Positions 7,809 through 27,944 of a DNA stretch of 64,000 bases are shown in pieces. Origin of the DNA: Streptomyces sp. I6 (GTDB lineage: Bacteria; Actinomycetota; Actinomycetes; Streptomycetales; Streptomycetaceae); assembly GCA_003725745.1 (NCBI GenBank), contig RHDP01000001.1, forward strand, positions 1,581,501 to 1,645,500. Reading direction: 5' to 3'. The notes under the pieces were generated by a model, which worked only from the letters and a program-made list of their open reading frames with translations, was not told the DNA's origin and made no database searches. The position numbers and the translations under genes are program-made. The first letter of the stretch is position 1; each line of letters begins with the position of its first letter.

Positions 7809-8744
7809 ATGAGTCGGCATCGATCCCCCACGCGTCCCGGCGGCCGCGTATCCGCCGCCGCGGCCCTGACCGCACTGCTCCTCGTCCCGGTCGGAGCGGT
7901 CGTACTCGCCTGCCTGGCATGGCCGGAGGACGGGTCCGTGAACGGCGCCCGCGCCGAGCCGGCCGGCGCGGTGCGGACCCCCGGCCCGTCCGCCTCCTCC
8001 GGGCCGTCCGCCTCCTCCGGGCCGTCCCTGGACGAGGGACTCGCCGCCGCGACCGGGGCGGCGCGGACGGAAGGCACCGGGCACGTGTCGGTGGCCCTGA
8101 TGGACGTGGACACCGGCCAGAGCGCCACCGCGGGTGACAGCCACACCTATGTCACGGCGAGCATCGTCAAGGCCGATGTCCTCGCCGCGCTGCTCCTTCA
8201 GGCGCAGGACGCCCGGCGCCGGCTGACGGAGCAGGAGCGGCAGTGGGCGACGGCGATGATCCGGGACAGCGACAACGACGCGGCGACCGCGCTGTGGGAC
8301 GCGATAGGCGGAGCCGACGGCCTGGCGGAGGCCAACCGCCGACTCGGGCTGCGGGAGACCGAACCGGGGCAGGAGGGCCTGTGGGGCCTCACCGAGACCA
8401 CCCCTGCCGACCAGCTGCGCCTGCTCAGGGCGGTGTTCACCACGGACTCCGCCCTGTCCGACACCTCGCGGGCCTACGTCCAGGAGCTGATGGGCACGGT
8501 GTCCGCCGGCCAGGACTGGGGGGTGTCCGCCGCAGGCGACGCCGGGTCCGCGCAGCTGAAGAACGGCTGGCTCCCCCGGACCGGCACGGGCCTGTGGGTG
8601 ATCAACAGCATCGGCCTCGTGGAGAGGGACGGCCACCGCCTGCTCATCGCCGTGCTCAGCGACGGCCAGCCCACCCAGGCGGCGGGCATCGCCCTCGTCG
8701 AAAGCGTCGCCGACGGTGCGGCCGCCTACTTCGCCGGGCTGTGA
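7809..8744 (+). CDS. secreted serine hydrolase of the class A beta-lactamase fold
   Basis: A 311-residue exported protein. An N-terminal membrane/signal segment (about residues 14-37) is followed by a Ser/Pro-rich linker with the repeat SASSGP and then a beta-lactamase-like domain. Catalytic motifs are S118-I-V-K121 (SxxK) and S154-D-N156 (SDN). The third motif reads KNG instead of the usual KTG, and no clear Glu166-type omega loop is visible. True beta-lactamase activity is therefore doubtful; a DD-peptidase-like, esterase-like or beta-lactam-binding role is as likely. It is divergent from the two-component operon, which suggests the regulator may control it. Confidence 0.8.
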   Translation: MSRHRSPTRPGGRVSAAAALTALLLVPVGAVVLACLAWPEDGSVNGARAEPAGAVRTPGPSASSGPSASSGPSLDEGLAAATGAARTEGTGHVSVALMDVDTGQSATAGDSHTYVTASIVKADVLAALLLQAQDARRRLTEQERQWATAMIRDSDNDAATALWDAIGGADGLAEANRRLGLRETEPGQEGLWGLTETTPADQLRLLRAVFTTDSALSDTSRAYVQELMGTVSAGQDWGVSAAGDAGSAQLKNGWLPRTGTGLWVINSIGLVERDGHRLLIAVLSDGQPTQAAGIALVESVADGAAAYFAGL

Positions 8745-8962
8745 GACGTCCGCGTCGACGTCCCCTGCCCGTCCACGCGCCGCTCTCGGACGCGCGCCGC
8801 TTCCGGACGCGCGCCGTGCCCGTCCACGCGCCCTGCCTGTCCACGCGCCGAGGCCCGGGCCCGTGAGGCCCCGGCCCGCCCGCTCCCCCGTTCTCCGGGT
8901 GTCCGTCCGCCCGGTGCCGTCCCCCGGGGTGCCCGTCCCCCGGGTGTCCGTTCACAGGTTGT

Positions 8963-10822
8963 CTATCCCACGGTCTCCCGGCCCCCGGTCTCCAGCAGGT
9001 CCCGCAGCTCCGCGACCGCCTCGCGCAGGCGGTCGGCGAAGGCGCGCATCCGGTCCGCGACCGGCATGGGAGTGCTCAGGTAGAGGTTGAAACGCTCGGG
9101 GAGCAGGACGTAGGCCACACCGATGCAGCGGCTGCTGGTGGAGCCGAAGCCGAAGAACTGGATGTTGCGGGAGGGCGCGGAACTGGTGCTGAGGTAGTCG
9201 TCGCGCATCTTCAGCCAGCCGGGGGTGCGGTAGAGGGCGGGCTGCTCGGTGACACCCAGTTCCGGGCCGCGGCGGCGCTGGATGAGTTCCAGTTCCCACA
9301 GGTGCTGTTCGGGTACCTGTCCGGCCTGGGCGGCCTTCGCCCGGGCCACATGGGCTTCGGCAGCGGCCCGGAAGGCGGCGACCCGGCCCGCCGGCGAGGC
9401 GGCGGGATCCTCCATCGCCGCGACGAACGCCCGCATCTCCGGGGTGACGACGCGCATGGCCTCGGTGCGGCCGTTGCGGTACTGGCGGGTGGCGATCGAT
9501 TCGTAGGTGGCACCCAGGAGTCCCTTGGCGCGCTGGTGGGCGAGTTGGTAGGCGCACTGGACGAAGGCGTCCGGGGACATTCCCAGGGACTTGGCCGTGG
9601 TGCTGCCGAAGTCCGGGAAGGTCACCGTGGTGGTCGCGGTCGCGTCACCGTACGCGGCGAACGACTCGGCCGCGGCGCGTACCCGCCCCCTGAGCGGCGC
9701 GTCCAGTGCGAAGACGACCGGCTCCGGGGCGGGCAGGCCCTGGGAACGGGCGCCCGAGCGGCGGGAGTGCTCCTCGGCCGGGGTGCCCAGGAGGAAGTCG
9801 GTGAAGCCGAGGATGGTGGTGCCGTCGAGTTCGCAGTGCTCCACGTTGATGCCCGCCCGGCCGTCCGCGAAGACGACGAAGGACACCGCCTTGTCGAACC
9901 AGCGGTTCCCGCGATCGCCGTAGAGCAGTTCGTCGCACGCCTCCTGCACTCCGGCGGGCGCGAAGTCCTCGAGGCAGACGCAGAACAGCGCCGTCTCGAC
10001 CACGTCCAGGGACTCCGCGTTGCGAGGGTCCGCCCGCAGCAGGTCCTCGCGGGCGGCCGCCCACTCCGCACGCGCCATGGTGGTGAGGTGGCCCACCGAG
10101 GTGCCCGGCGCGGCGGGTTCGGCACCGGCCTTCATGACCGCGTGCAGCCCGGCCTCCAGGTCCCGCAGGCCGTACGGGACGCCGTCCGCGCCGAGCACGT
10201 CCAGCCGGAACATCCCGCCGCGGAAGAACACCACGATGTGCCGGGCGCCCGACGGCCCGGGCCGGTCCTCGCCGTAGGGGGCGCGCACCGTGTCCTGCCG
10301 CACGCCCGGAATCCGGGTGGTGGAGTAGAGGAACGTGTTCTGCGCCATCGACTGGGGCACTCCGCGCTGCGTCACCGGCGGGAGCTGCTCCCGGTCGAGC
10401 AGGCCCTTGTGGTGCAGCGCCCCCGCGATCAACCCGGCCGCGCGCGGCACCTGCCCCCCGCCGCCGTCCTGGAACAGGAAGAAGAAGTTGGCGTTGAGCG
10501 CGATCCGGTCCCGCCGGCCGAGGTAGCGGTACGGCCAGAACGTGTCCAGCCAGCTCTGCACGCCCTCGGTGGCCTCGTACTCCTCCAGTGCGGCGTGCAG
10601 CACCCGGCCGGCGCCGCCGGGACGGAGGAAGGCGGCGGTCTCCGCCTCGGTCGCCGCGAGCTCGTCCGCGGTCAGCAGCGGCGCGCACCAGGAGAGGAAC
10701 CTCTCGCAGCTGGCCTCCGGCGTGGGGAGCGGTACGCGCGGCAGGCTCTCCTCGTACGCGAAGGTGGAGGGTGCCGCGCCGGGCTGCGATGCCTCCGGCG
10801 TGGAGCTCTGACGGTTGTTCAC
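8963..10822 (-). CDS. choline/carnitine O-acyltransferase family protein
   Basis: A 619-residue protein of the choline/carnitine acyltransferase family, which moves acyl groups between CoA and a quaternary-amine alcohol. Family blocks in order: WLDTFWPYRYLGRRD near residue 100, NRWFDKAVSFVV, then the catalytic histidine block INVEHCELDG with His329. After that come STTAKSLGMSPDAFVQ and the TYESIATRQYRNGRTEAMR block. Together these cover the catalytic His, the CoA-contact Lys/Ser region and the substrate Thr/Arg region. The GTG start overlaps the stop of the methyltransferase gene in a GTGA, so the two are coupled. Bacterial members are uncommon and mostly uncharacterised; the acceptor here may be the product of the neighbouring enzymes. 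Confidence 0.85.
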   Translation of the reverse strand: MNNRQSSTPEASQPGAAPSTFAYEESLPRVPLPTPEASCERFLSWCAPLLTADELAATEAETAAFLRPGGAGRVLHAALEEYEATEGVQSWLDTFWPYRYLGRRDRIALNANFFFLFQDGGGGQVPRAAGLIAGALHHKGLLDREQLPPVTQRGVPQSMAQNTFLYSTTRIPGVRQDTVRAPYGEDRPGPSGARHIVVFFRGGMFRLDVLGADGVPYGLRDLEAGLHAVMKAGAEPAAPGTSVGHLTTMARAEWAAAREDLLRADPRNAESLDVVETALFCVCLEDFAPAGVQEACDELLYGDRGNRWFDKAVSFVVFADGRAGINVEHCELDGTTILGFTDFLLGTPAEEHSRRSGARSQGLPAPEPVVFALDAPLRGRVRAAAESFAAYGDATATTTVTFPDFGSTTAKSLGMSPDAFVQCAYQLAHQRAKGLLGATYESIATRQYRNGRTEAMRVVTPEMRAFVAAMEDPAASPAGRVAAFRAAAEAHVARAKAAQAGQVPEQHLWELELIQRRRGPELGVTEQPALYRTPGWLKMRDDYLSTSSAPSRNIQFFGFGSTSSRCIGVAYVLLPERFNLYLSTPMPVADRMRAFADRLREAVAELRDLLETGGRETVG

Positions 10823-11664
10823 TGCTGCTCTCGATTCGGGTCGTCGGTGCCTGCGGTGTCGTACGGCCGGGAAATGTAGAGCTGTGCGTGGAGCCAGCCT
10901 TCCGCCTCGAAGCCCCGCGCATCCACCCCCGCGGCAGCCATGCCGTCGAGGACGAGCGCCTGCTCCTCCGGGGAGGCGAACCTGCGCTGTTTGAACACCT
11001 CGCCGACGCGGGTGGTGCGGTACCCCAGCCCGGCCAGGGCGTGTTCCACGGGGTCGAAGGGGAACATCCGCAGCACGAAGTGCGCCATCCACGGCAGGCG
11101 TCCGCCCTGGACCCGCACCACGCGGGTCAGCGTCCGCTCGGTGACGTAGCCGAGGCAGCCGGTCGAGATCACCAGGTCCGTGCCGGCGAGCCGGGCACGC
11201 TGGCGGGGGGTGGGGTCGTGGTTCTCCAGGTCGGCGTGGACGGCGTCGTCGAGGAAGCCCGCTTCGAGGGCGTAGGCCAGCGCGCTGCCTGCGGCGTCCA
11301 GGCCGACGAAGCGGAGAGGCCGCGCCGGGCGGCGGGAGCGGGCCAGTTCCCGGTCGCGGGCCAGCAGGGCCGCTCGGCTGTCGTCCCCGTCCCCGGTGTC
11401 ACCGTAGCGGTCGTACAGCTCGTCCAGGGTGGCGTCGTACTTCACCAGGGCGGCGTTGATGCCGTAGGAGCAGCCGATGTCCAGCACCTGCGGCACGGTG
11501 ACCCGCCGGGACTCGCGGTACTCCTGGATCAGCTTGGCGAACCACGGTTTGGCCTGCTGGGGCACGCAGTAGCCGAGGGGGCGGAGCACGGAGAAGTACG
11601 TACGGGGATCGGGCTGGGCGTAGATGTGGTCGAGGGACACTTTTCCGGTGGCGTCGAATCGCAC
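10819..11664 (-). CDS. class I SAM-dependent methyltransferase
   Basis: A 281-residue Rossmann-fold methyltransferase. The SAM-binding motif I is VLDIGCSYGINAAL (about residues 61-74), an acidic motif II follows in RFVGLDAAGSALAYA, and a motif IV-like TDLVISTGCLGYV lies further on. A 60-residue N-terminal lid (LDHIYAQPDPRTYFSVLRPLGY) precedes the fold. The GTG at 11664 has GGAGG 11 nt upstream and starts the conserved region. It is coupled to the acyltransferase gene. The substrate is unknown; N-methylation that yields a betaine-like acceptor for that enzyme is a testable inference. Confidence 0.85.
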   Translation of the reverse strand: MRFDATGKVSLDHIYAQPDPRTYFSVLRPLGYCVPQQAKPWFAKLIQEYRESRRVTVPQVLDIGCSYGINAALVKYDATLDELYDRYGDTGDGDDSRAALLARDRELARSRRPARPLRFVGLDAAGSALAYALEAGFLDDAVHADLENHDPTPRQRARLAGTDLVISTGCLGYVTERTLTRVVRVQGGRLPWMAHFVLRMFPFDPVEHALAGLGYRTTRVGEVFKQRRFASPEEQALVLDGMAAAGVDARGFEAEGWLHAQLYISRPYDTAGTDDPNREQQ

Positions 11665-12065
11665 GGGGTGCTGTTCCTCCGTGGGGTCGCTGAGTGGCTG
11701 GGGCGCTGAGCGCCGGTACGGGCCGCTGGGCGGCCCGGTCACCGGCTCTCCGGGGGGTGGGTGGCCAGGGGCTGAGTGGCCGGGGGTCGAGTGGCCGGGG
11801 TGAGTGGCCGGGACGCAGGTGGCGGGGCGAGTGGCCGGGACGCAGGTGGCTGCGGCGCAGGGATGCCCGGTGGGGCACGCCTGCGGGCGGGACGGATGAG
11901 CGGCCGTCCGCTGCGCTCCAGCGGTGGTGGCGGGTGCGGGACCGGCGCCGGCGAGCCGGCTCGGCGACCCGCTTCCGGTGGCGCTCCATGCGACGGCCGG
12001 GGCAACCCCCGGGTGACCGGGACCGTCGGTCCGGCAGCCGCACACCACGCACCGCCTCGGGACCG
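11665..12065. repeat. intergenic region with GAGTGGCCGGG-type tandem repeats
   Basis: The 400-nt gap between the HalD-like and methyltransferase genes has no supported gene. From about 11769 to 11860 it contains repeats of GAGTGGCCGGGACGCAGGTG and shortened forms. The flanking genes point the same way, so this may be an untranslated spacer inside one transcript or may hold a second promoter. Confidence 0.5.
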
Positions 12066-12935
12066 CTAGTCCAGGAGCCGGTCTCCACGGACGGCCCGGC
12101 CTTCGGCCCGCAGATGCTCAGGCAACACCCGCCCGAACAACTGCCGGGTGCGGGCGACGCTCCCGATCACACCGGGGCGCTCGCTGTAGGCGAAGATCGC
12201 GGAGTGGCGGGCGGTCCCTCCCCTGACGGGGCTCACCCGGTGCAGCGAGTAGCGGCCCTTGAAGAGCTGCAGGTCGCCCGGGCGCAGGGGCAGGCGGCGG
12301 ATGAACCGGTCGCCGCGGCCGTCGAGGACGTCCCGTACGGCGGTGAAGTTCTCCTCCTGCGCGGACCGGATGTTGGGGCAGTACTCGAAGGCGCCGCCGT
12401 CCTCCGCCTCCCGGGTGAGCATGCTGACGGTGAACTCGTTGGTGTCGAAGTGCCAGGGGTGCTCCATGCCGGGCGGGACCACGTTGAGGACCAGTCCGGA
12501 CAGCGGGTCGGCCAGCTCGTACAGTCGCGGCAGCCCGAAGCAGCGGGCGACGAAGTCCCGGAAGAGGTCGTTCGAGTAGAGCCGGCCTATCAGGCAGTCC
12601 TCGGGGATGCGGTCCCTGGCGACGAACGCGTTGCCGCGCTGGAAGGTCCGCCGGCCGGGGTGGTCCTCGGGCAGGTCCGAGTCGACGGCGATGTTGTAGA
12701 CGTTCACCGTCTCCATGTCGTGGTACGCGCGAGGGGCGAGCGTCGAGCCCTCCTCACGGAGGACGTCCTGGAGGGACCGCCGGATGAAGTCCGGCAGCAC
12801 GGTGCAGCCGAGGTCCGACAGTTCGCGCCGGGCCCCGGCCACCACCGCCTGCCCCTGGGGGCCGTCGAGATCCGACAGCGGATACCGGTTCGTATCGACC
12901 ACCTGGTCAAGCGTGATGGCTTCCAGCGTGCTCAT
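12066..12935 (-). CDS. HalD/BesD-like Fe(II)/2-oxoglutarate oxygenase (probable hydroxylase)
   Basis: A 289-residue protein of the Fe(II)/2-oxoglutarate family that includes the free amino-acid halogenases BesD and HalD. Visible blocks are TVNVYNIAVDSD, ADPLSGLVLNVVPPG, EHPWHFDTNEFTVSML, FEYCPNIRS, LRPGDLQLFKGRYSLHRV, then ARHSAIFAYSERPG. The iron ligands would be His162, Asp164 (HxD) and His232, with Arg243 as the likely 2-oxoglutarate contact. In the halogenases the Asp is replaced by Gly to admit chloride; here the carboxylate is present, so hydroxylation is predicted. The ATG has GAGAGG upstream. It is the first gene of the apparent three-gene unit with the methyltransferase and acyltransferase. 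The substrate is unknown. Confidence 0.8.
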   Translation of the reverse strand: MSTLEAITLDQVVDTNRYPLSDLDGPQGQAVVAGARRELSDLGCTVLPDFIRRSLQDVLREEGSTLAPRAYHDMETVNVYNIAVDSDLPEDHPGRRTFQRGNAFVARDRIPEDCLIGRLYSNDLFRDFVARCFGLPRLYELADPLSGLVLNVVPPGMEHPWHFDTNEFTVSMLTREAEDGGAFEYCPNIRSAQEENFTAVRDVLDGRGDRFIRRLPLRPGDLQLFKGRYSLHRVSPVRGGTARHSAIFAYSERPGVIGSVARTRQLFGRVLPEHLRAEGRAVRGDRLLD

Positions 12936-13432
12936 TCGATCCTCTCGGCAGACGGGCCGGTGGAATGCCTCAACTCGATTGAGGGAAAGCAGAGTTGAAC
13001 TTCCCACAGCCACGGCCCACTTGTCTGTGACACGCCACACGAGCGCCGCGTGCGACACCCCCGGCCTGCTCTCGCCGCCTGCCGGAGCAGGCGGGGACTC
13101 GACGATCCCCCGCGCCCCACGGCGGGGGCTGAGAACTGCCTTGCGGCCGGGCGGGCACGGCCGGGCAACGGGCACCGCGCGGCCCCGGGCGGAGACGCCC
13201 GGGGCCGCCGAGCCGGTGGGCTACCGACCGCCCGGCACGGTGAGCCGCACGCAGGTCTGCCATACGTGCGGTTCACTCCGCGTCAGCCGTCAGCCGTCTG
13301 CCATCAGCCGCCGACTGTCGGCTGTCGGCTGTCGGCTGTCGGCTGACAGTTGTCGGCCGCCGACTGCCCACTTTCGGCTGACAGTTACCGACTGACAGTT
13401 GTGGATATCTGTCAGCCGTCAGTCGTCAGCTG
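12936..13432. repeat. intergenic region with a dense TGTCGGCTG/CAGCCGTCAG repeat array
   Basis: The first 300 nt should hold the promoter of the HalD-like gene (reading leftward). From about 13283 to 13441 the sequence is an array of short direct and inverted words: TGTCGGC occurs about four times in tandem near 13317-13345, and CAGCCGTCAG and CTGACAGTT recur on either side, giving many possible hairpins. It abuts the stop of the small gene ending at 13433. No protein is supported here. Confidence 0.6.
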
Positions 13433-13825
13433 TCAGTCGTCGTAGTGGATCAGCGAACGCACCATGCGGCACGTCGTGTCGGACGGCGGGCGTATCCCGA
13501 TGCGCTCGGCCGTGGTGCGTATCCTCCGGTTGCTCGCGTTCGCCGGGTGGTACACGCCGGTGTCGAGCAGCGCGATGGCCAGGCGCATCGCCTTGAGCCG
13601 GCGGTTGTGGGATTCGTACCACTCGCGCGGGAGGCCCGCGGGCAGTGGCCTCTTCGCCGACCCGGGCAGCGCGGACCGGCGCTCCGGCAGGCTCGCCCTC
13701 GCCCCTGCCCCTGCCCCTCGCCGGGCACTCCTGCCCACCCCTGCCACTCCCGTCCCCGTTCCCGTTCCTCTCGCCGTGCCCGTTCCTGCCCCTGTCCCCG
13801 TCGTCGTGATTGCGGCAACGCCCAT
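13433..13825 (-). CDS. small conserved Streptomyces protein with Gly/Thr-rich N-terminus
   Basis: A 130-residue protein of unknown function. The first 30 residues are a low-complexity Gly/Thr/Ala/Arg run encoded by GT-rich microsatellite-like DNA. The C-terminal 75 residues look conserved and structured (REWYESHNRRLKAMRLAIA, then LLDTGVYHPANASNRRIR, then CRMVRSLIHYDD). A very good ribosome binding site, AGGAGG 6 nt before the ATG, fixes the start. A perfect 12-bp palindrome lies about 34 nt upstream. The ArsC-type gene is divergent. Confidence 0.75.
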   Translation of the reverse strand: MGVAAITTTGTGAGTGTARGTGTGTGVAGVGRSARRGAGAGARASLPERRSALPGSAKRPLPAGLPREWYESHNRRLKAMRLAIALLDTGVYHPANASNRRIRTTAERIGIRPPSDTTCRMVRSLIHYDD

Positions 13826-13858
13826 CGGCGACCTCCTGGCGCGGTGGTTGATCCCTCA

Positions 13859-13870
13859 CGAACTAGTTCG
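13859..13870. promoter_or_regulatory. perfect palindrome, candidate operator
   Basis: CGAACTAGTTCG is a perfect 12-bp palindrome in the 129-nt gap between two divergent genes. It lies in an AT-rich patch that is unusual for this DNA. A dimeric repressor site controlling the small gene, the ArsC-like gene or both would fit; no regulator is identified. Confidence 0.4.
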
Positions 13871-13954
13871 ATTTTAGCGCTCACCACTGACAATTACCCC
13901 TGGCCAAAGGGTGTTCAGGGTGTTCGAGTGGCAGACGGGGAGTACGGTGGCGCA

Positions 13955-14314
13955 ATGGAGATCTGGATCAATCCCGCCTGCTCGAAGTGCCGTGGTGCGC
14001 TGCGCCTGCTGGACGAGGAGGGCGCGTCGTACACGGTGCGCCGGTACCTCGAGGACGTCCCGTCCGAGAACGAGATCCGCGACGTACTCGAACGACTCGG
14101 ACTGGAACCGTGGGACATCACCCGCACCCAGGAGGCTGCCGCCCGGGACCTCGGCCTGAAGGACTGGCCGCGGGACGCGGCCTCGCGCGCCCGGTGGGTC
14201 ACGGCGCTCGCGGAGCACCCGAAGCTGATCCAGCGCCCGATCATCACGGCGGACGACGGCACGGCGGTGGTCGCGCGTACCGACGAGGCGGTACGGGACG
14301 CCCTCGGCCGCTGA
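13955..14314 (+). CDS. ArsC/Spx family reductase-like protein
   Basis: A 119-residue thioredoxin-fold protein of the ArsC family. It starts MEIWINPACSKCRGAL, giving a CSKC active-site motif at residues 9-12, and later has the family segment EHPKLIQRPIITADDG. Length matches arsenate-reductase-like proteins (110-140 residues). No arsenite pump, ArsR or other arsenic gene is nearby, so a general thiol-reductase or Spx-like role is as likely as arsenate reduction. The ATG at 13955 begins the conserved first strand. Confidence 0.85.
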   Translation: MEIWINPACSKCRGALRLLDEEGASYTVRRYLEDVPSENEIRDVLERLGLEPWDITRTQEAAARDLGLKDWPRDAASRARWVTALAEHPKLIQRPIITADDGTAVVARTDEAVRDALGR

Positions 14315-17335: not shown

Positions 17336-18366
17336 GTGACCATCAAGGCTGAGTACATCTGCATAGACGGCACCGAGCCGACCGCGAAGCTTCGCTCGAA
17401 GACGAAGATTCTGACGGGTCCCGCCTCAGCCGTCTCCGAGCTTCCCGTCTGGGGCTTCGACGGGTCCAGCACCAACCAGGCCGAGGGTCACGCCTCCGAC
17501 CGCGTACTGAAGCCGGTCTTCTCGTGTCCCGACCCGATCCGCGGCGACGGCAACGTGCTGGTGCTGTGCGAGGTCCTCAACACGGACATGACCCCGCACC
17601 CCTCCAACACGCGGGCCCCGCTGGCCGAGGTGGCGGAGAGGTTCGCCGCGCAGGAGCCGATCTTCGGCATCGAGCAGGAGTACACCTTCTTCGACGGCGA
17701 CCGTCCGCTCGGCTTCCCCGTCGGCGGCTTCCCGGCCCCCAGGGCGGCTACTACTGCGGTGTCGGCGCCGACGAGATCCACGGCCGGGACGTCGTCGAGG
17801 CGCACCTGGAGCACTGCCTCCAGGCGGGACTCGGCATCTCCGGCATCAACGCCGAGGTCATGCCCGGCCAGTGGGAGTTCCAGGTCGGCCCGCTGGCGCC
17901 GCTGGAGGTGGCGGACCAGCTGTGGGTCGCCCGCTGGCTGCTGTACCGCACCGCCGAGGACTTCGACGTCTCCGCGACGCTCGACCCGAAGCCGGTGAAG
18001 GGTGACTGGAACGGCGCGGGCGCGCACACCAACTTCTCCACGAAGGCGATGCGCGAGGGCTACGACGCCATCATCACCGCGTGCGAGTCGCTGGGCGAGG
18101 GCTCCAAGCCGCTGGACCACGTCAAGAACTACGGCGCCGGCATCGACGACCGGCTGACCGGTCTGCACGAGACGGCCCCGTGGAACGAGTACAGCTACGG
18201 CGTCTCCGACCGCGGCGCCTCGGTGCGCATTCCCTGGCAGGTCGAGAAGGACGGCAAGGGCTACATCGAGGACCGCCGTCCCAACGCCAACGTCGACCCC
18301 TATGTGGTGACCCGCCTGCTGGTGGACACCTGCTGCTCCGCGCTGGAGAAGGCCGGCCAGGTCTGA
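17336..18366 (+). CDS. glnII: glutamine synthetase type II (GlnII), frameshifted here
   Basis: Eukaryotic-type glutamine synthetase, an alternative to GlnA1 that is not controlled by adenylylation. The N-terminal half ([15 protein letters not shown], then [14 protein letters not shown], then [16 protein letters not shown]) is in one frame. The rest ([67 protein letters not shown]) is in another. The break is in the C run 17736-17740: adding one C gives [15 protein letters not shown] and a total of 343 residues, the usual length of Streptomyces GlnII. The rest of the gene shows no decay. GTG start at 17336; GlnR-type operator upstream; strong terminator downstream. Confidence 0.92.
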
Positions 18367-25499: not shown

Positions 25500-26585
25500 T
25501 CAAGCCGCTGGAGCCAGGTCGGTTTGAGTGATTTGTTCGGTTGGTGTGCTGGTCAGGGCGCGGTAGACCTCGCGGGCGACGAATCGCTTGAGGCAGCGCA
25601 TGATGTCCTTCTTGTTCAGCCCTTCCTTGGTGCGGCGTTCGACGTAGGCGCGGGTGCGTTCGTCGAAGCGCATGCGGGTGAGGACGATGGTGTGCAGGGC
25701 GTTGTTCGCCGCCCTGTCGCCACCGCGGTTGAGGCGGTGGCGGTGGGTTCGTCCGGACGAGGCCGGGATCGGTGCGACCCCCGCCAGGTGCGCGAACGCG
25801 CCCTCGGACCGCATCCGCTCCGGGTTGTCCCCAGCCGAGGCCAGCAGCTGGCCGGCGGTCTCGGGGCCGACGCCGAACAGCTCCAGCAGCTGCGGGGCGG
25901 CTTGCTTGACCAGCGGGCCGATCTCGGTATCGAGATCGGCGATCTCGGCGTCAAGTGCCTGGTGACGCCGGGCCAGGCGGCGCAGCGATGCCCGGGTCGC
26001 CGTCAGCGGCCGCGACAGATCGTCTCCGGGCCGCAGCCGGGTGAGTGTGCGTATCAGTGCGGCCCGGTCCAGACCGGTGACCTGTTCACGCAGCATCGCG
26101 GGGGCGGAGACGAGCAGGCCGCGTATCTGGTTCATCGCCTGGGTGCGGGCCTTGACCGCGCTGCGGCGGGCGAGTCGCAGGACACGCACGGCCTCGACCA
26201 CGCCGTCCCGGCTCTTCGGTGTGCCGGTGGCGCGTCCGGAGAGCACGGCCGTCGCGGCGGCGTAGGCGTCGATCGGGTCGGACTTGCCCTTCATCCGCCG
26301 CGTCTTGCGGTCCGGCCGGTCCACGTCGATGACCGTGACGCCCGCGGCGGTCAGCACCCGGGCGAGTTCGGCGCCGTAGGCGCCGGTGCCCTCCACCCCG
26401 ACCGCGAGCAGCGTGCCGTGTGAGCGCATCCAGTCCAGCAGGTCGCGGTAGCCGCGGATGGTGGCGGGGAACTCCCGGTCGGCCAGGTGCCGGCCGACCG
26501 TGTCGATCACGGCCGCGTGGTGGGTCAGGCCGTGGGTGTCGACTCCGCCGGTGATCTGCGGGTCGTCGTGCGTCATGCTGGTCAT
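25500..26585 (-). CDS. IS110 family transposase (element 1)
   Basis: A 361-residue DEDD transposase/recombinase. The N-terminal RuvC-like domain has GGVDTHGLTHHAAVID (first Asp), VEGTGAYGAELARVL (Glu), and DRKTRRMKGKSDPIDAYAAA (Asp pair). The C-terminal transposase_20 domain has GVGPETAGQLLASAGD, GAFAHLAGVAPIPASSGRT, the catalytic-Ser region and HRLNRGGDRAANNALH. The ATG at 26585 is preceded by AAGGACGG. The frame appears fully intact, so it could be active. The protein differs strongly from the second transposase, so these are two different elements rather than copies. Confidence 0.93.
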   Translation of the reverse strand: MTSMTHDDPQITGGVDTHGLTHHAAVIDTVGRHLADREFPATIRGYRDLLDWMRSHGTLLAVGVEGTGAYGAELARVLTAAGVTVIDVDRPDRKTRRMKGKSDPIDAYAAATAVLSGRATGTPKSRDGVVEAVRVLRLARRSAVKARTQAMNQIRGLLVSAPAMLREQVTGLDRAALIRTLTRLRPGDDLSRPLTATRASLRRLARRHQALDAEIADLDTEIGPLVKQAAPQLLELFGVGPETAGQLLASAGDNPERMRSEGAFAHLAGVAPIPASSGRTHRHRLNRGGDRAANNALHTIVLTRMRFDERTRAYVERRTKEGLNKKDIMRCLKRFVAREVYRALTSTPTEQITQTDLAPAA

Positions 26586-26909
26586 GTCCGTCCTTGTGGC
26601 GTGTCCGTTCCGAGGGCGGCACGCGCCGGTCGGGCGGGTGGACAAGACAGTGACGGGGCTTCTGGACCAAGCTCCTGACTTGTTGAATCGACCCCAGACG
26701 CTCGGTCTGCAGCCGTAGCGTCCAGGGTGTCGGTCGGCACGGGCCCGCAGTGCTCCTTGCCGCCCACGGGCTGGCTCTCTCATAGCGTGCCGCCGCCGGC
26801 CGACACCCGCGCGGTGTGGCTCGACAGAGGCATGAGGACGGCACGGTGACTTCAAGTCAGGATGCCCACCGCACTCCCTCCCCGCTCCCGTCGAGTGCAA
26901 GGCCAGCCT
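26586..26909. ncRNA. shared non-coding region; possible IS110 bridge-RNA template
   Basis: About 320 nt between the divergent transposase starts. In IS110-group elements the non-coding end next to the transposase start is known to encode a structured bridge RNA that guides target and donor choice. The part belonging to element 1 (about 26586-26780) has a suitable length of about 195 nt. I see no specific loop guides, so this is inference from family biology and position. Confidence 0.3.
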
Positions 26910-27944
26910 GTGATCCTGATCGGTATCGACCCGCACAAGTCCTCCCACACCGCCGTCGCCGTCGACGCCTCGGGGCACCAACTGGCCAAGCGCCGGTTCG
27001 TCGTCAACGCCGGTACGCTCCGCCAGCTCATGGCCTGGTGCGAGCAGTGGCCCGAGCGTCGCTTCGCCGTCGAGGGCGCCGGCGGGCTTGGCCGCTCGCT
27101 CGCCCAGCAGCTGGCCGCCGCCGGCGAGGACGTGGTCGACGTGCCGGCCACGCTCTCCGCCAGGGCCCGGCTGCTGGCCACCGGCGGCAACCGCAAGACC
27201 GACGAGGCAGACGCCCGCCACGTTGCCCAGGTCGCCCTGTTCCGCCCCGACCTGCGGCAGGTGACCGCCGAGGACCAGACGACGATCCTGCGGCTGCTGA
27301 CCGAGCGGCGCGACGACCTGGTCCACGAGCGCACCCGCGTCCTGAACCGGCTGCACGCCGTCCTGCGTGACCTGTTGCCCGGCGGCGTGGCCACCGGTCT
27401 GTCCGCCGACAAGGCCGCCGCCGCGATGAAGGGCATCCGCCCCGTCACCGCCACCGACAACTGCCGCCGCGACATAGCCCGCGACCTGCTGGCCGACCTG
27501 CGACGCCTGGACCGACTGGTCAAGGACAACGAGATCCAGATGCGCGAGGCACTGGCCGCCACCCGCACCACGCTCACCCGCCTGCCGGGCCTGGGAACCG
27601 TGCTGGCTGCCAAGGTCCTCGGGCACGTCGGCGACGTCACCCGCTTCCCCACCGAGCACCACTTCGCCAGCTACACAGGCACCGCGCCCCTGGACGCCTC
27701 CAGCGGCAACAACGTCCGCCACCGACTCAACACCGGCGGCAACCGCGCGCTGAACTCGGTCCTGCACACGATCGCCGTCTGCCAGATCCGCGACGGCGGA
27801 CGCGGGCAGGACTACTACCTCCGCAAGATCGCCGAGGGGAAGACCCCGCCCGAGGCCCGCCGAGCTCTCAAGCGACGGCTGTCCAACGTGGTTTACCGGA
27901 TCATGCAACGCGACCATCGGACCCAACTCGCTGCAGTCGCTTGA
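26910..27944 (+). CDS. IS110 family transposase (element 2)
   Basis: A 344-residue DEDD transposase. The N-terminus is MILIGIDPHKSSHTAVAVD with the first catalytic Asp; then FAVEGAGGLGRSLAQQL (Glu) and GNRKTDEADARHVA (Asp pair). The C-terminal domain has LPGLGTVLAAKVLGHVGD, HHFASYTGTAPLDASSGNN and HRLNTGGNRALNSVLH. The GTG at 26910 gives the usual IS110 N-terminus; an ATG at 26862 in the same frame would add 16 residues. No frame damage is visible. Confidence 0.92.
   Translation: MILIGIDPHKSSHTAVAVDASGHQLAKRRFVVNAGTLRQLMAWCEQWPERRFAVEGAGGLGRSLAQQLAAAGEDVVDVPATLSARARLLATGGNRKTDEADARHVAQVALFRPDLRQVTAEDQTTILRLLTERRDDLVHERTRVLNRLHAVLRDLLPGGVATGLSADKAAAAMKGIRPVTATDNCRRDIARDLLADLRRLDRLVKDNEIQMREALAATRTTLTRLPGLGTVLAAKVLGHVGDVTRFPTEHHFASYTGTAPLDASSGNNVRHRLNTGGNRALNSVLHTIAVCQIRDGGRGQDYYLRKIAEGKTPPEARRALKRRLSNVVYRIMQRDHRTQLAAVA

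Follow-up and report, generated by a model that had tools for sequence, protein, structure and literature searches.

A conserved actinobacterial oxygenase-methyltransferase-acyltransferase unit that may form an O-acyl ester of a betaine-like compound

What do three adjoining genes of Streptomyces sp. I6 make together? The question was raised by a stretch of 64,000 nucleotides (assembly GCA_003725745.1, contig RHDP01000001.1, positions 1,581,501 to 1,645,500), called the window in this study. The genes encode an Fe(II)/2-oxoglutarate oxygenase (OXY), a methyltransferase (MT) dependent on S-adenosylmethionine (SAM) and a carnitine/choline-family O-acyltransferase (CAT). With a probability of about 0.5, the unit makes an O-acyl ester whose alcohol part is a small hydroxylated compound of the onium (betaine-like) type. 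The three same-strand genes, with a GTGA overlap of the last two, had been reported in a preliminary description of the sequence; coordinates, strand and order were as reported there. The features of the trio are as follows.

12066-12935, minus strand: OXY, 289 amino acids, an open reading frame (ORF) with GAGAGG resembling a ribosome-binding site; Fe(II)/2-oxoglutarate oxygenase with a HalD/BesD-type fold
10819-11664, minus strand: MT, 281 amino acids, class I SAM-dependent methyltransferase; GTG start at 11662-11664 with GGAGG ahead
8963-10822, minus strand: CAT, 619 amino acids, carnitine/choline-family O-acyltransferase of PF00755
10819-10822, minus strand: GTGA shared by the stop codon of MT and the start codon of CAT, seen in the sequence
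11665-12065, minus strand: spacer of 401 bases between OXY and MT
11753-11861: tandem repeats within this spacer, with units of about 15 and 27-28 bases

OXY-MT-CAT is a conserved unit, and the co-occurrence and conserved order of the genes put their linkage far beyond chance. Co-occurrence was investigated in two partly overlapping samples, one of 391 genomes of the order and one of 374 genomes of the class. In the order sample, OXY was found in 51 genomes, of which 50 belonged to the genus of the window and one was an outlier with 33% identity. CAT was found in 50 genomes, identical to the 50 with OXY at 70% identity or higher. OXY and CAT were neighbours by coordinates in 49 of these and lay on different contigs in one (G386). 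The class sample had OXY in 44 genomes, 39 at 58-100% identity and five distant at 34-46%. A PF00755 CAT was found in 41 genomes of this sample: all 39 with close OXY, plus G467 and G639. A named collection gave 409 stretches matching a search pattern, of which 390 encoded OXY relatives. The best 80 of the 390 were kept; they comprised Streptomycetaceae (52), Thermomonosporaceae (21), Pseudonocardiaceae (5), Frankiaceae (1) and one without family. The occurrence of the trio in these four families led to rejection of a curiosity specific to the window.

Gene order and context were investigated in 144 stretches; the order sample supplied 40 of them, the named collection 80 and the class sample 24. 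The set excluded short loci from sites already represented, L101 (the contig ends there), the distant OXYs (L070, L071, L248-L253), and L259-L261, which hold second copies and other CATs. The order OXY-MT-CAT on one strand was found in 120 stretches, corresponding to 105 of the 125 distinct by OXY sequence. OXY and CAT without MT between them were found in 24 stretches (20 of the 125 distinct), and none of the 144 stretches was without CAT. The genome search for co-occurrence in this order, proposed in the preliminary description, thus found the genes together in related genomes, and the separation named there as a refutation was not seen. The proposed three-gene unit was upheld; the adjacency of MT was less strict.

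The surroundings of the trio varied: besides the glutamine synthetase region there were three or more other sites that recurred, and many that were seen once. No fourth shared gene was seen in the window and the 38 trio stretches fetched first, nor in the 80 named loci, as judged with a home-made gene caller that misses lower-GC genes and could let a small or odd partner escape. The caller missed OXY in three and CAT in two of the 80 loci, and all were recovered by tblastn. A larger gene cluster was rejected on this result. A plasmid-borne unit was also rejected: a search of 72,556 plasmid records with CAT (P0003) gave no match at E 1e-5. The OXY relatives in plasmid records were at most 50% identical.

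OXY matched the Pfam HalD family (PF23169) with 47.5 bits (cut-off 26); the only other Pfam match at E <= 1 was a weak one to the WelO5 profile. The AlphaFold2 (AF2) model, built on an alignment of relatives, had a mean predicted confidence (pLDDT) of 89.8. The best Foldseek matches of this model were HalD (E 2.2e-15), HalB, BesD and the hydroxylase homologue 7jsd. OXY therefore shares both profile and fold with the HalD/BesD family, at 15-19% identity to the HalD/BesD structures in the Foldseek rows. H159, W161, H162, D164, H232 and R243 were invariant in 126 of 126 rows. We take H162-x-D164 and H232 to be the facial triad and R243 to serve 2-oxoglutarate binding. The alignments had HxG in HalB, HalD and the lysine halogenase 9oew, and HxD in lysine hydroxylases. 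The HxG site of the halogenases, which leaves room for halide, was not present in OXY, which resembles the solved lysine hydroxylase homologue at this site. Because HxD was found in all 126 rows, OXY is read as a hydroxylase rather than a halogenase, and the halogenase assignment was rejected. By its sequence, the metal site is of hydroxylase type, with the carboxylate ligand of hydroxylases. The likeness to HalD and BesD in the preliminary description was thus upheld for fold and family, and not for the halogenase site. OXY did not belong to the TauD-like gamma-butyrobetaine/trimethyllysine hydroxylases; no enzyme so named was among the 50 best fold matches listed. Near the HxG/HxD motif, Leu145 and Thr165 of OXY occupy two positions that are acidic in HalD/HalB. 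We assume, with some doubt, that these positions contact the substrate amine in BesD.

CAT was a full-length member of PF00755 (511.8 bits against a cut-off of 22.3), and the previously described EHCELDG motif was confirmed at residues 328-334. Residues were counted in 126 rows, 125 of them readable; L184 was unreadable, since its frame cut probably began before the true start. H329, catalytic by PDB alignment, was kept in 125 of 125 readable rows, as were Y440, T453-E454, S545-T546-S547 and F559. In the PDB alignments, these residues corresponded to residues of carnitine acetyltransferase (CrAT), carnitine octanoyltransferase (COT) or choline acetyltransferase (ChAT). Profile and catalytic His place CAT in the carnitine/choline acyltransferase family, and it has the STS motif, the ammonium-site aromatic residue and most of the coenzyme A (CoA) residues in common with CrAT, COT and ChAT.

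The acceptor pocket was different. CAT has E-Q-H-L-W-E where COT and CrAT have D-R-H-L-L-G and ChAT has D-N-H-L-L-A. Gln506 of this motif, found in 125 of 125 readable rows, was aligned to the Arg of COT and CrAT and to the Asn of ChAT. The Arg at this site (CrAT 518, COT 505) presumably binds the carboxylate of carnitine. The Val-Asp-Asn set of ChAT, which we take to be its specificity positions, was replaced by Thr453, Glu454 and Gln506. A plain carnitine or choline acetyltransferase was not accepted because CAT lacks both specificity sets. The pocket residues suggest that the acceptor is probably neither carnitine nor choline. With Gln in place of the carnitine-pocket Arg in all readable trio CATs, the ester is probably not an acylcarnitine. 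An acyl-carnitine-like product had been proposed in the preliminary description: an acceptor of betaine type agrees with the CAT family and with the gene neighbours of some OXY relatives, and the loss of the Arg speaks against carnitine itself. F557, found in 124 of 125 readable rows, lies at the position of CrAT Met564, which we take to limit acyl length. K411, D418 and E441 were invariant in 17 of 17 sequences. By our reading, they correspond to CrAT K423, D430 and E453, and Ser407 replaces CrAT K419. In one study (PMC11852590), CrAT K419, K423, D430 and E453 are described as conserved among carnitine acyltransferases, with D430 and E453 located at the CoA arm.

Carnitine-type CATs outside the trio were seen in G467 and G639, which belong to one actinobacterial genus. 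They were about 30% identical to P0003, are also PF00755 members, and differ from the trio CAT in keeping the Arg (DRHL). A genome search found no OXY in G467 and G639, and both CAT genes (L260:8501-10204 and L261:8453-10162) were convergent with an Opp-type importer. In this small comparison, the change from Arg to Gln appears to accompany the trio. The binding protein in L260 was 31% identical to one adjoining OXY in Rhodobacteraceae M382.

MT matched Pfam methyltransferase models only under their cut-offs; Methyltransf_25 was matched at E <= 0.1 by 22 of the 24 members of MT alignment A2, with a best value of 1.1e-4. A PDB sequence search and NCBIfam gave no informative homologue for its family. 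MT has the SAM motif DIGCSYG, and its AF2 model (alignment of relatives) had a pLDDT of 85.5. Nearly all of the 50 Foldseek matches listed were named methyltransferases, including farnesyl pyrophosphate methyltransferases, BioC, MmtN, and histamine and nicotinamide methyltransferases. Fold and SAM motif, together with the weak Pfam matches, place MT among the class I SAM-dependent methyltransferases. MT may act as an N-methyltransferase.

MT was searched for in 61 genomes: 50 with the trio, G015, and 10 without OXY and CAT. It was found in 50 of 50 trio genomes and in 0 of 11 others. Thirteen of the 50 lacked the trio-type MT, and all 13 had an MT elsewhere with 39-46% identity; four of the other 37 had a second MT (33-43%). 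An MT homologue was also found in 48 of the 341 order-sample genomes without the trio. No common partner of stand-alone MTs was seen in 17 stretches from trio genomes and 20 stretches from 19 non-trio genomes. The idea that MT acts in trans was examined on a tree with 41 genomes, of which 12 lack the trio-type MT; the tree excluded G386 and eight more genomes for which no OXY-CAT stretch had been fetched. The tree gave 4 changes of state, or 1 to 4 independent pairs, and a sign test had no power. MT activity seems to be wanted wherever the OXY-CAT pair occurs, though the in-trans argument is weak.

Two further arrangements of MT were observed. The locus L232, one of the 20 distinct stretches without MT between OXY and CAT, had only MT remnants between these genes, and the same genome (G407) carried a second, intact MT-CAT pair without OXY on another contig (L259:7683-10396). 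In G233, a trio-type MT with 67% identity stood alone (L102; G233:C6:502214-503032), upstream of a gene that resembles a pantothenate kinase in sequence. Neither OXY nor CAT was found in G233 by genome searches.

The substrate of OXY was approached through relatives outside the trio. Ten of 93 matching plasmid records, hand-picked for variety, were opened; they are examples and not rates. In four of the ten, betaine-type importer or demethylation genes adjoined OXY relatives with 32-50% identity. Caballeronia SBC2 (50%) had a LysR-like ORF, OXY, a DddP-like M24 enzyme, an OpuAC/ProX-type binding protein, a permease-like ORF and a ProV-type ATPase above the curated cut-off. Rhodobacteraceae M382 and Alisedimentitalea (36-37%) had the OXY relative with an Opp-type importer, an MTTB-family enzyme and a flavin adenine dinucleotide (FAD) oxidoreductase, which in these Rhodobacterales was related to glycine/sarcosine oxidases. 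Mesorhizobium WSM1497 (32%) had an MTTB-family enzyme, the OXY relative and a Rieske oxygenase. The best PDB match of the Rieske oxygenase was carnitine monooxygenase, and the second best of the MTTB-family enzyme was a glycine betaine methyltransferase. An OXY relative also adjoined a DddP-like M24 enzyme in Pseudomonas MPC6 (41%) and the metagenome-assembled genome G673 (46%). The DddP matches were far under the family cut-off (291-347 bits against 600). Because relatives adjoin betaine-type importer or demethylation genes, the substrate of OXY may be an onium compound. On balance, the betaine importer beside the nearest outside relative (Caballeronia) speaks for such a substrate. On the plasmid of Pseudomonas sp. 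MPC6, two opposite-strand OXY relatives (L263:5885-6744 and 7956-8840) flanked a LysR gene.

A possible route was drawn from these results. MT would methylate the nitrogen, or less likely the sulfur, of a small molecule derived from an amino acid. OXY would then hydroxylate this onium product at a carbon close to the charged centre. CAT would transfer an acyl group of probably short length from acyl-CoA to the new hydroxyl, in a reversible reaction. In this route, we infer what MT does, that the steps run in the order MT-OXY-CAT, that the substrate is an onium compound, how long the acyl group is and which way the reaction runs. Candidate compounds are a beta-hydroxy-alpha-betaine, or an amino acid with a side-chain trimethylammonium group that is hydroxylated next to the charged carbon. 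By chemical reasoning, such compounds would keep the N-C-C-O spacing of carnitine but carry the carboxylate at another place, and would fit Gln506.

Several results weigh against this route. No shared transporter or regulator hinting at a physiological role was seen around the trio. The OXY relatives outside the trio are 28-50% identical and may differ in substrate, and the nearest solved structures of OXY act on lysine or ornithine. Six of the ten opened plasmid records had no betaine gene: Ensifer and Shinella (28-29%) had just an Opp-type importer and a metallo-beta-lactamase-type (MBL) hydrolase, two Pantoea records and Acinetobacter (32-34%) had a DUF2817 protein, with a binding protein in two of the three, and a Pseudomonas record had the DddP-like enzyme as its sole hint. 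Distant actinobacterial OXYs stood beside an amino-acid-type ABC transporter, as judged from sequence (L250), and an arginine deiminase/DDAH-type enzyme (L249). The fold matches of MT are weak (TM-score by query length 0.32-0.43), and its sequence gives no sign of the atom methylated. The MT frame was interrupted in 3 of 125 distinct stretches (L037, L059 and L134, all counted among the 105 with the full order), and in two of the three genomes concerned, G335 and G264, no second MT was found. These two speak against a strict need for MT; MT may be dispensable, or the interruptions may be sequencing errors. Nothing telling was seen beside the distant OXYs L070, L071 and L251. OXY-DUF2817 pairs were those of the Pantoea and Acinetobacter loci L265, L269 and L271; many further Pantoea and some Klebsiella were annotated alike.

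Four other explanations were weighed. OXY may hydroxylate a free basic amino acid of the lysine or ornithine type, after which MT would N-methylate it and CAT acylate the hydroxyl. This explanation was judged unlikely. It draws on the nearest relatives of OXY by Foldseek and profile search, which are HalD (solved with ornithine), BesD, and HalA/HalB and the hydroxylase homologue (lysine), and on several distant OXY relatives adjoining amino-acid genes; the identity to those structures is just 15-19%, whereas relatives at 31-50% include those in betaine contexts. The replacement of two HalD/HalB acidic positions by Leu145 and Thr165 argues against it as well, if these positions do contact the substrate amine in BesD, which is uncertain. 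Hydroxylation before methylation was also the order in the preliminary description. On that order the gene neighbours are divided: the betaine-context relatives hint at an already methylated substrate, and others adjoin amino-acid genes. A degradative or recycling role was considered quite improbable. CAT would deacylate an acylated betaine to give acyl-CoA, and OXY would begin to degrade the molecule set free. In Proteobacteria, some OXY relatives sit within catabolic-looking clusters with importers, the CAT without OXY in G467 and G639 adjoins an Opp-type importer, and CATs are reversible, as is generally held and as also stated in the abstract of PMC11852590. Around the actinobacterial trio, however, neither an importer nor a demethylase was seen as a shared gene, and the methyltransferase points to synthesis.

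An acylated hydroxy-sulfonium product, resembling dimethylsulfoniopropionate (DMSP), with sulfur as the methyl acceptor, was considered very improbable. MmtN, solved with Met and presumably a methionine S-methyltransferase, was among the weak fold matches of MT, but the matches to MmtN were no better than those to many other methyltransferases. The DddP-like M24 enzymes adjoining OXY relatives in Caballeronia, Pseudomonas and G673 are related to a DMSP lyase, but their matches fall far short of the family cut-off, as given above. Three unrelated functions linked by chance are nearly excluded. In 20 of 125 distinct stretches MT is missing between OXY and CAT, which would fit this explanation, as would the MT homologues in 48 of 341 non-trio genomes, with no common partner in 20 stretches. 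The OXY-CAT association in two samples and many chromosomal contexts contradicts it, and MT was present elsewhere in 13 of 13 trio genomes lacking the trio-type gene, compared with 48 of 341, although this represents 1 to 4 independent events. An O-acyl ester of a betaine-like compound remained the best explanation.

The 401 bases between OXY and MT leave OXY without translational coupling to MT. The called gap was 29-219 bases in 26 of the 28 other fetched MT-bearing stretches. The remaining two were 375 bases in the nearest relative L032, where the start was called eight codons late, and 539 bases in L037, where the MT frame was interrupted. The MT/CAT spacing of -4 recurred in L032, L034, L039, L042, L045, L046, L063 and L066; the gap was positive in most other stretches compared. 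A scan for promoters and terminators at 8500-14000 found none, and Rfam gave no match in the whole window at gathering scores. The genes flanking the trio are as follows.

7938-8744, plus strand: beta-lactamase-family gene, downstream of the trio
13955-14314, plus strand: ArsC-family gene, upstream of the trio

Of two glutamine synthetase genes that also lie in the surroundings in the window, the second has an interrupted frame. This GlnII-like gene (17336-18366, plus strand) had three stop codons if read in one frame, and its counterpart in L032 had an open frame of 343 amino acids. The interruption is possibly a sequencing error; the genome was rated 87% complete. Intergenic tandem repeats of 7 bases (CTGTCGG and CGTCAGC) were observed at 13281-13441, upstream of OXY. 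At 25500-27944, two opposite-strand genes gave the impression of N-termini resembling IS110-type transposases. The GC content of the window was 68-75% in 4-kb steps, and the genome was 7.05 Mb. The trio of this genome was closest to the trios of Streptomyces species.

No description of the trio was found among the matches listed in the open-access full-text literature, which takes in few subscription papers or preprints. The three families are known one by one; what appears to be new is their combination, how widely it is conserved and the altered CAT pocket. In eukaryotes, trimethyllysine and gamma-butyrobetaine hydroxylases lead to carnitine, which is then used by carnitine acyltransferases. 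The trio would share the logic of that pathway: a methylated amine, 2-oxoglutarate-dependent hydroxylation and O-acylation by a PF00755 enzyme. It differs in its oxygenase family, its methyltransferase within the unit, its changed acceptor pocket and its arrangement as one three-gene block. Judged from sequence, the unit looks built to function like a carnitine system yet fits neither the carnitine-specific nor the choline-specific definition.

Carnitine-type acyltransferases are usually regarded as eukaryotic. In the sampled actinobacteria, nearly all of them accompany this oxygenase (39 of 41 genomes in the class sample). A tentative joint proposal is that the trio forms a self-contained actinobacterial counterpart of carnitine, built with a BesD-fold hydroxylase and not with gamma-butyrobetaine hydroxylase. 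An onium alcohol derived from an amino acid would be loaded with short acyl groups and might serve as an undescribed acyl carrier or buffer, or as a secreted acetyl-betaine signal. If this is true, many actinobacteria would make their own carnitine-like acyl carrier, and the HalD/BesD fold would have a branch for onium compounds. The three genes would then be a target for a new class of metabolites and a new hydroxylase for biocatalysis.

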